Virus record (IMG/VR): IMGVR_UViG_3300025141_000903
Span: 1-21,652 of that record
Direction: 5' to 3' (one strand)
Length of the DNA stretch: 21,652 nt
Origin: a virus
Below, piece after piece: positions 20,390 through 21,652 of the stretch (positions are counted from its first letter, which is position 1; every line of letters begins with the position of its first letter). A program made the position numbers and the translations under genes. Under the pieces are notes generated by a model. The model ran no database searches. It saw only the letters and a list, made by a program, of their open reading frames with translations, and was not told the DNA's origin.

Positions 20390-20703
20390 AGAAATATTAT
20401 GATAAGCTTGTTCGTGATAAGATTCCCAATATTATTAAAGAAGCGGGGAAGAACGCTCAAGTACGCCCGGTTTCGCCCGAAAAGTTTAAAGCGTATGCTT
20501 TAACAAAATTGCGAGAAGAAGTAGAAGAATTTATCGACAATCCGTGTGCGGAAGAGGCCGCCGACATTCTTGAGATATTGTATACTATATGTGAGCATCA
20601 TGATGTCCGGCCTCTTACAATTGAGACTGAAAGAATTTCTAAACGTGTCAGCAAGGGCGCCTTCGACTCGGCCCTTATTCTAGAATGGGTAGATGAAGAT
20701 TGA
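20386..20703 (+). CDS. MazG-like NTP pyrophosphohydrolase
   Basis: A 105-aa all-alpha NTP-PPase. The start YYDKLVRDKIPNIIKEAG is the signature of the phosphoribosyl-ATP-pyrophosphohydrolase-like group. The metal-binding residues are present: E44-E45-x-x-E48 and E57-x-x-D60 (LREEVEEF, then EEAADIL). Such enzymes cleave (d)NTPs to (d)NMPs plus pyrophosphate. In phages they are proposed to clean nucleotide pools or to tune host (p)ppGpp signalling; which applies here cannot be seen. ATG overlaps the polymerase stop by 4 bases, and its own stop overlaps the next start by 4 bases, so it sits in a coupled trio with replication. The protein appears complete and ends in an acidic tail. Confidence 0.88.
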   Translation: MKKYYDKLVRDKIPNIIKEAGKNAQVRPVSPEKFKAYALTKLREEVEEFIDNPCAEEAADILEILYTICEHHDVRPLTIETERISKRVSKGAFDSALILEWVDED

Positions 20704-21557
20704 AAATCGTTGGTTTGGGAAAAGCGGGCTGTAATATTGCAAAAACTTTTGGAAAGTTTCCACAGTATGAAGTCTTTATGGTCGATACCGAAGAGGATGC
20801 GGACATTGTAATCAAGAAAAGAGAGAACCATGAAGATTATGATGCCAACTTTCCAAATCTTAAAAGAAAGTTCAAATTTACCAATGAAGAGGTTATTTTA
20901 GTTACGTGTGGTTCGGGCCAGATCTCAGGGGGAGTCCTCCAGCTTTTGAGCCAACTTCAAAATAATAAAATACGGCTTGTTTATATACAACCTGATCTTA
21001 CCCTATTAAGCGAAACACAGAAGAAGCAAGAAAAAATTGTTAGAAATGTGCTGCAGGAGTATGCGCGCTCCGGACTCCTTCAGGCGATTTATCTTGTCGA
21101 TAATAGCAAGATTGAAAAAAGTATTGGTGATGTACCCATTACTGGCTACTATGAAACTCTCAATCAGGCGATTGTTAATACGCTTCATATGATCAATATT
21201 TTTGAAAACTCTGAGCCGGTGATAGGAAATTATATAACCCCAGCCGAGATAAGCCGAATTGCAACAATTGGAATCGTGAACCTCGATGCGGAAAAAGAAG
21301 AAGAAAATTGGTTTTATGACTTGACAAGCGCACGCGATGTGGTATACTATTATGGTATCAATCAAGAGGATCTAAACAATGACGGCACGTTGTTCAGGAA
21401 AATTAATAGTTTTGTGAAGTCAAAAATTAAAGACAACATGAACATATCCTATGGGATATTTGAAACATCCTATGAACAAAAATATTGTTATTGCATTAAG
21501 TATTCATCTATGGTACAATCATTTTTAGAACAACTAGACGATCAGGATATTAGCTGA
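20700..21557 (+). CDS. Divergent tubulin/FtsZ-superfamily protein
   Basis: A 285-aa protein with the layout of an FtsZ/tubulin GTPase core. KIVGLGKAGCNIAKTF (2-17) parallels FtsZ IKVIGVGGGGGNAV. YEVFMVDTE matches VEFFAVNTD. GSGQISG (71-77) stands where tubulins have GGGTGSG. IRLVYIQPDLTLLSETQKKQ fits ILTVAVVTKPFNFEGKKR, and LLQAIYLVDNSKI fits VDSLITIPNDKLL. GNYITPAEISRIATIGI (176-191) falls where FtsZ has its T7 loop NVDFADVRTVM. The two T7 aspartates needed for GTP hydrolysis appear absent (I179 and A182/E183). It is shorter than FtsZ (about 380 aa). Start is TTG 20700, overlapping the MazG-like stop as TTGA. A plain nucleotide-binding Rossmann protein (G5-x-G7-x-x-G10) is the alternative. 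Homology is inferred from motif order. Confidence 0.6.
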   Translation: MKIVGLGKAGCNIAKTFGKFPQYEVFMVDTEEDADIVIKKRENHEDYDANFPNLKRKFKFTNEEVILVTCGSGQISGGVLQLLSQLQNNKIRLVYIQPDLTLLSETQKKQEKIVRNVLQEYARSGLLQAIYLVDNSKIEKSIGDVPITGYYETLNQAIVNTLHMINIFENSEPVIGNYITPAEISRIATIGIVNLDAEKEEENWFYDLTSARDVVYYYGINQEDLNNDGTLFRKINSFVKSKIKDNMNISYGIFETSYEQKYCYCIKYSSMVQSFLEQLDDQDIS

Positions 21558-21591: not shown

Positions 21592-21652
21592 ATGGGTATC
21601 AATTTAGACAAGATGAGAGATAAGCTTTCATCCCTTCGCGGCGAGGGTAACG
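21592..21652 (+). CDS. Start of a gene, possibly gp32-type single-stranded-DNA-binding protein (truncated by window)
   Basis: Only 20 codons are visible: MGINLDKMRDKL, then SSLRGEGN. The basic/hydrophobic helix followed by a Gly-rich turn resembles the start of gp32-like proteins in distant T4 relatives, and a gp32-type gene next to polymerase genes makes sense. The evidence is short and mostly contextual. The strong ribosome site makes it likely that a real gene begins here. Confidence 0.45.
   Translation, partial: MGINLDKMRDKLSSLRGEGN

Follow-up and report, generated by a model that had tools for sequence, protein, structure and literature searches.

A divergent tubulin-fold protein with eroded hydrolysis motifs, encoded behind a small DNA polymerase in a phage lineage

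Results and Discussion

The open reading frame (ORF) at the end of the replication genes of the window (the whole stretch of viral DNA analyzed, 21,652 bases) is a genuine conserved gene. Its product is predicted to adopt the fold of FtsZ and tubulin, the motifs by which these proteins hydrolyze GTP are eroded in it and in its relatives, and the gene keeps a constant place behind a small family A DNA polymerase (PolA). We give a probability of about one half to the reading that its product is a tubulin-fold accessory of the phage replisome that carries a nucleotide and hydrolyzes it weakly or not at all.

Gene organization and extent of the family

The window is a virus record that starts with structural genes (major head protein, head-tail adaptor, tail sheath, tail tube and baseplate), followed by PolA, a small MazG/PRA-PH-like gene, the tubulin-fold ORF and the start of a gene for a single-strand DNA binding protein (SSB) (Table 1). 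Overlaps of 4 nt join PolA to the MazG-like gene, and the latter to the tubulin-fold ORF. Judging from its length and from the positions of its family matches, PolA would consist of the polymerase part only, with no recognized exonuclease domain. The truncated SSB starts in the same way as the protein of a related locus (L037), which matches the SSB family phrog_1192 (E 8.3e-24). A PADLOC search with four proteins returned nothing.

Table 1. Location of the genes and motifs discussed (window positions, unless a locus name is given).
Feature	Location	Strand	Remarks
Tail sheath protein, 1,023 aa	4040-7111		Long; main sheath families match the last third only (residues 719-1022)
Family A DNA polymerase (PolA), 395 aa	19202..20389	+	PF00476 E 3.2e-13, phrog_17 E 1.4e-17, residues 176-359
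Small MazG/PRA-PH-like gene, 105 aa	20386..20703	+	Weak PF01503 match, E 0.015, below cut-off
Tubulin/FtsZ-fold ORF, 285 aa, TTG start	20700..21557	+	Conserved family, predicted fold
T1-like glycine loop GLGKAGCN, residues 5-12	20712..20735	+	G5, G7, G10 in 184/184; N12 in 109/184
Degenerate T4-like loop GSGQISG, residues 71-77	20910..20930	+	Strict T4 in 0/184; looser pattern in 31/184
N135, T6 position	21102..21104	+	N in 174/184
H7 start, residues 151-155	21150..21164	+	Y/F at 151 in 155/184; N155 in 177/184
T7-like segment GNYITPAEISR, residues 176-186	21225..21257	+	Acid at 183 in 135/184; R186 in 178/184
gp32-type SSB, start	21592..21652	+	Gene cut by the window end after 61 bases
HRKK-motif protein genes of other phages	L138:2867-3256, L139:1346-1801, L140:4374-4763		Further loci L314-L393

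Scanning IMG/VR with the tubulin-fold protein yielded 76 related loci, an alignment-based scan found 147, of which 80 were kept, and scans with divergent members added further ones. A first set of 193 full-length rows was reduced to 115 by merging identical cores and, with a second batch of 76 full-length rows, the family set reached 184 non-identical full-length sequences after merging, down to 31% identity to the window protein. This number of relatives rules out a chance motif match. Outside IMG/VR, tblastn of the window protein against a GenBank-derived phage collection (50,697 records) gave no match at E<=1, and a divergent member (L121) gave only 23 Vibrio phage records at E ~9, taken as chance; a family scan of genome contigs returned 57 stretches, with no relative among them.

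Predicted fold

AlphaFold2, supplied with 53 aligned sequences, produced a confident model (pLDDT 88.5, pTM 0.88) in which both domains of the FtsZ/tubulin fold are complete and connected by helix H7, and strands and helices follow one another as in FtsZ; four of the five models had pLDDT values of 85.7-88.5, and the fifth 73.9. In a Foldseek search of the PDB, FtsZ ranked first (E 3.1e-12, TM 0.69 on the query). VIA-align covered model residues 1-281 and gave Z scores of 24.1 for CetZ (3zid_B; rmsd 3.1, 257 aligned), 22.3 for FtsZ (2r6r) and 21.6 for both TubZ and tubulin, with a range of 20.7-24.1 among the 50 matches listed and approximately 14-16% identity in the structural alignments; PhuZ chains were absent among the matches listed, which excludes nothing. 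The best match in a viral structure library, at a TM of 0.75, was a protein titled 'FtsZ Cell division GTPase' from an uncultured Caudovirales phage, followed by other phage FtsZ/tubulin-like proteins. The initial annotation had proposed an FtsZ/tubulin-like protein and suggested structure prediction with a fold search as a check; the matches to CetZ, FtsZ, TubZ and tubulin bear it out, and no other fold emerged. Judged by the model, the tubulin-fold call is thus correct. It rests on one confident model, since a second prediction, made for the divergent L121 branch from a very shallow alignment of 10 close sequences, was poor (pLDDT 48) and was not used.

Sequence methods hardly detect the fold in this family. 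Searching the sequences of solved structures gave four hits with the protein as query (best E 0.25) and none with the profile; the tubulin model PF00091 matched 2 of 53 members without reaching its cut-off (best E 0.086), and NCBIfam, including TIGR00065, gave no hit for the window protein. In local hhalign comparisons the probability was 66.3 for PhuZ (E 5.5e-5, a weak match) and 1.5 for FtsZ; in global mode it was 7.9 for PhuZ, and 2 columns were aligned with FtsZ.

Two other candidates were discarded. Models of NAD-type Rossmann proteins matched the glycine loop region, namely TrkA_N in 40/53 members (best E 1.5e-5) and saccharopine dehydrogenase in 18/53, but that reading is ruled out by the structure matches listed, which are titled FtsZ, TubZ, CetZ and tubulin. 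A second, canonical tubulin in the lineage was also rejected, as PF00091 did not pass its cut-off in 12 + 5 records, some of them fragments; two weak hits (E 0.004 and 0.018) fall at the place of the tubulin-fold gene itself.

Eroded hydrolysis motifs

We then compared the T loops of the 184 family members with those of control sequences. All three motifs pointed out in the initial annotation (GLGKAGCN, GSGQISG and GNYITPAE) are present in the ORF at residues 5-12, 71-77 and 176-183. The strict T4 pattern (GGGTGTG and relatives), kept in 7/7 FtsZ and 7/7 PhuZ controls, is absent from every family member, and its looser form in Table 1 is one that admits GGSG. Moreover, the T3 motif (G-x-G in residues 30-62) was found in 0/184 sequences and in 7/7 controls of each kind, and the stretch between strands S2 and S4 is short, with 34-56 residues in the family (about 36 in the window protein and most relatives) as compared to 52 in E. 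coli FtsZ; both features had been missed earlier. It should be added that six of the seven FtsZ controls lack T1, since the match began after it.

The T7 segment, which can be aligned only to within one or two residues, gives a less uniform picture. A strict D..D[VI] pattern occurs in 2/184 members (7/7 in FtsZ and in PhuZ), a loose acidic pair within residues 165-192 in 40/184, and an acid is wholly absent from residues 175-186 in 28/184. Apart from position 183, acids are found at position 180 (57/184) and position 179 (4/184), and the window protein itself carries Glu183 near the expected second T7 acid. Along the family tree, the acid changed 27 times at position 183 and 29 times at position 180, a frequency that would not be expected if catalysis strictly needed an acid there. 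The earlier statement that the T7 aspartates are replaced is therefore only partly right. In the same way, the claimed loss of hydrolysis residues is supported by the motifs across the family for T4, and for T3 as well, whereas that of T7 appears partial and patchy. Regarding the conservation of the two segments, residues 71-77 follow a family pattern of their own, G-x-[GS]-x-[IV]-[ST]-[GA], and residues 176-183 are variable except for F178 (136/184) and P181 (144/184). On the sequence evidence, it is likely that the window protein 'cannot complete the catalytic site', as the initial annotation had worded it, although some turnover may take place, because Glu183 is present and 40 of the 184 members have the loose acidic pair.

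Predicted nucleotide pocket and other conserved positions

The glycines of the T1-like loop are invariant. In our own alignment, N135, the aromatic residue at position 151 and N155 coincide with what we take to be, from general knowledge of these proteins, the guanine contacts of FtsZ and tubulin, and all three are widely kept (Table 1). The seven sequences (7/184) that lack N155 also lack N135, which means that base binding is not strictly required; in a FastTree tree, N155 was lost three times, each time together with N135, a joint loss that is suggestive only (sign test, p 0.25).

Positions identical in at least 95% of the sequences are found in the N-terminal half (G5, L6, G7, G10, F17, Q22, Y23, E45, L80, L83, Y95, Q119, R123 and S124), in the H7 region (N155, H163, M164 and N166) and after H7 (R186, T189, G191, F205, L208, Y217, L225, T256, Y258, Y264 and Q273). 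Most of them lie outside the nucleotide-binding and other T loops, and many fall, by predicted secondary structure, in the H1-S2 turn, the end of H5, the second half of H7 and the C-terminal sheet. They may form a conserved surface for a partner or a ligand, distinct from the classic filament interface. In addition, the model shows no helix H8 between T7 and the strand that follows, and it ends with a short helix (residues 275-281), with neither a long C-terminal helix nor a tail beyond its last strand.

It is rather unlikely that the protein forms filaments in the manner of PhuZ or TubZ, positioning phage DNA or the replication site with a GTPase chemistry that is altered but working, or slow. 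PhuZ, described in the available text of PMC4244570 as centring phage DNA, provides a model for such a role, and a complete two-domain predicted fold, with T1 and the guanine positions kept and an acid near the T7 acid in most members, the window protein included, would suit it. Nevertheless, T3 and strict T4 are missing from all 184 sequences and kept in all seven PhuZ controls, the T7 acids have been gained and lost many times, and the absent C-terminal helix and tail correspond to elements (H11 and the tail) that matter for filaments of phiKZ TubZ, according to the part of PMC3678025 consulted.

Linkage to the DNA polymerase

In 110 loci and in the window, the usual gene order is baseplate-side genes, PolA, often the MazG-like gene, the tubulin-fold gene, SSB, UvsX, a 5'-3' exonuclease and a DnaB-like helicase. 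The MazG-like gene (cluster 3) comes and goes, being present in 80/111 sources. Of 109 loci that have both PolA and the tubulin-fold gene, an upstream frame, counted as any open stretch of at least 60 codons and not as a checked gene, ends at or just inside the tubulin-fold start in 102, most commonly with a 4-nt overlap (68 loci); in 20 of the 109, the distance from PolA is below 60 nt, leaving no room for a MazG-like gene.

Scans anchored on PolA were chosen so that loci would not be selected by the tubulin-fold gene itself. Among the best 80 of at least 591 PolA relatives in a first scan, 69 loci carry the tubulin-fold gene, and the 11 misses are contig ends with no more than 392 nt of DNA behind PolA. 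In a second scan with a more divergent alignment, it is present on the same strand in all of the best 80 of at least 598 relatives (4 of the 80 matches being partial at contig ends), and the point where its frame opens ranges from 120 nt before to 366 nt past the PolA frame end. Over these scans the gene lies within 400 to 900 nt behind PolA and, as eight contigs are common to both by name, 141 different contigs carry PolA together with it; with the best 80 kept each time, more distant PolA genes fall outside these counts. The initial annotation had merely hinted at a replication-linked role; this proved to be its best supported part, and the link is much stronger than it was put there.

Mean identities, calculated over 3,076 pairs after excluding short alignments and pairs with at least 90% identity in the tubulin-fold protein, were 64.6% for the tubulin-fold gene and 67.7% for PolA, which indicates that the former is constrained like PolA and less than the other replication genes of the operon (SSB 82.5%, UvsX 84.8%, exonuclease 77.1%, helicase 81.5%). 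The MazG-like gene reached 56.8%, and clusters 6 and 7, located before PolA, about 37%. Adjacency and co-occurrence are no proof of contact, because neighbours travel together in a syntenic phage lineage.

The presence of a MazG/PRA-PH-like gene in most of these operons, together with a pocket kept while the hydrolysis motifs eroded, also brings to mind a sensor of guanine nucleotides through which phage replication, or the use of nucleotides, would be tuned, and which is not a polymerase partner. We regard this as quite improbable, since 20 of 109 loci have no room for a MazG-like gene and most of the highly conserved positions lie outside the pocket. A decoy, cap or poison of host FtsZ that stops division during infection is more improbable still: the fold is FtsZ-like in prediction and phage FtsZ inhibitors such as lambda Kil are described (PMC3961180, in the part available), but in the loci examined the gene has a constant place in a replication operon and a degree of conservation close to that of PolA, and more movement and variation would be expected of a gene directed at the host.

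PolA itself gave no tblastn match at 1e-3 in the GenBank-derived phage collection, and one locus in a scan of genome contigs, in the chromosome of a WOR-3 metagenome-assembled genome (MAG), CP070664.1. That stretch (L232:8704-14060) holds PolA, SSB, UvsX and a tubulin-like gene, and the frames on either side of it contain runs of N; it is probably phage DNA within the assembly and was not counted as host evidence. Seven records searched with the sliding-clamp models PF02916 and PF00712 gave no match, from which nothing is concluded, as PF02916 was run without a phage positive control.

Other phages with the same operon

Through relatives of the SSB we reached Flavobacterium phage immuto, Microcystis phage Mel-JY01 and an uncultured phage of 484 kb, each of which shares with the tubulin lineage the order of a small PolA, SSB, UvsX, exonuclease and helicase. 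Between PolA and SSB these three phages encode a protein of 129-151 aa with an HRKK motif, unrelated to the tubulin-fold protein, with no PHROGs family and only weak Pfam matches. Among 80 loci found by scanning with it, PolA stands before it in 79, SSB behind it in 79, and a tubulin-like gene occurs in none (E<=0.01). Conversely, it was found in 0/295 loci of the tubulin lineage, a number in which some contigs recur and the 11 loci ending ahead of the tubulin-like gene are counted; in 10 long records, its one weak hit fell within a frame of 1,502 codons and was attributed to chance. The tubulin-like gene and the HRKK-motif protein are thus complementary in their use of one operon place, which may reflect functional replacement or lineage history only.

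As a side observation, the Mel-JY01 gene annotated as DNA polymerase I (L138:6985-8025) stands where related operons have the 5'-3' exonuclease. The polymerase of this phage is likely the hypothetical protein at L138:1590-2816, judging by position and by eye only.

Comparison with known systems

The window family is a divergent variant of the tubulin superfamily in an unusual genomic place. It shares with FtsZ and CetZ the two-domain fold over residues 1-281, the T1 glycines and the asparagines aligned with the guanine contacts; the comparison with CetZ concerned the fold (Z 24.1). In contrast to both, it has no T3 or strict T4, its T7 acids are not conserved and no H8 is predicted after T7; the window protein also falls below the Pfam and NCBIfam cut-offs and is encoded in a viral replication operon. 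The best viral structure matches, the phage FtsZ proteins A0A6J5RW92 (uncultured Caudovirales) and A0A8S5UFG9 (Myoviridae sp. ctcyQ27), have TM values on the query of 0.75 and 0.64 but are larger (452 and 387 aa), with 16% and 13% identity to the window protein. As for PhuZ and TubZ of phiKZ-like phages, they are likewise phage-encoded tubulin-fold proteins, but PhuZ keeps the T3, T4 and T7 patterns (7/7). By tblastn the window family gave no match to PhuZ, and PhuZ gives 179 phage records, none seen from the window lineage, which the collection lacks. In the phiKZ TubZ protofilament, as presented in PMC3678025, the GTPase site is competent and includes a catalytic aspartate in T7, which is not a fixed feature in the window family.

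In the part of PMC11835377 available, tubulin is given as a distinguishing function of the Chimalliviridae and a handful of other large phages, based on an HMM search above 30 bits. Such surveys would probably miss the window family, since the PF00091 cut-off was not reached in 17 lineage records. We found no report of a tubulin-fold protein in this phage lineage in a literature search that left aside preprints and most subscription journals, and the words tubulin and FtsZ are absent from the main text of two Far-T4 papers (PMC4360716, PMC13037479). Separately, several unverified faecal records named 'Bacteriophage sp.' (L149-L154), possibly of bacterial origin, carry ordinary FtsZ genes that are 42-55% identical to E. 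coli FtsZ.

There is a precedent for the use of a cytoskeletal fold in phage DNA replication, namely the actin-like protein AlpC, on which a prophage relies to replicate its DNA efficiently (PMC4446434). AlpC differs in having an actin fold, filaments and a DNA adaptor, AlpA, and has no sequence relation to the tubulin-fold protein.

A proposed tubulin-fold accessory of the phage replisome

Under the reading of a replisome accessory, the protein would have kept the guanine-nucleotide pocket while much of its machinery for cleaving phosphate was lost, and it would be produced in step with the small PolA and SSB. Its ligand, with a structural or sensing function, would probably be a guanine nucleotide such as GTP or GDP, turned over slowly if at all, and the protein may act as a polymerase partner or replisome scaffold in contact with PolA or SSB. 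Besides the single confident model, the loss of both asparagines in some members and the acids left in T7, it counts against this reading that the tubulin-fold gene changes faster than SSB, UvsX, the exonuclease and the helicase, and that phages with the same operon do without a tubulin-like gene.

We also put forward, tentatively, a broader proposal that is possible but should be held with less confidence: that in a large uncultured phage clade the tubulin fold has left the cytoskeleton to become an obligate, barely or non-hydrolyzing replisome subunit, paired with a stripped-down family A polymerase in a processivity, scaffold or nucleotide-sensing role, and holding the operon place that an unrelated small protein has elsewhere.

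Altogether, these results suggest that a cytoskeletal fold has been reused in viral DNA-copying machinery. If this is right, they would add a phage lineage in which a tubulin-fold protein constantly adjoins the DNA polymerase, offer a natural experiment on the tubulin fold under relaxed GTP hydrolysis, and identify a candidate replisome subunit for direct testing.
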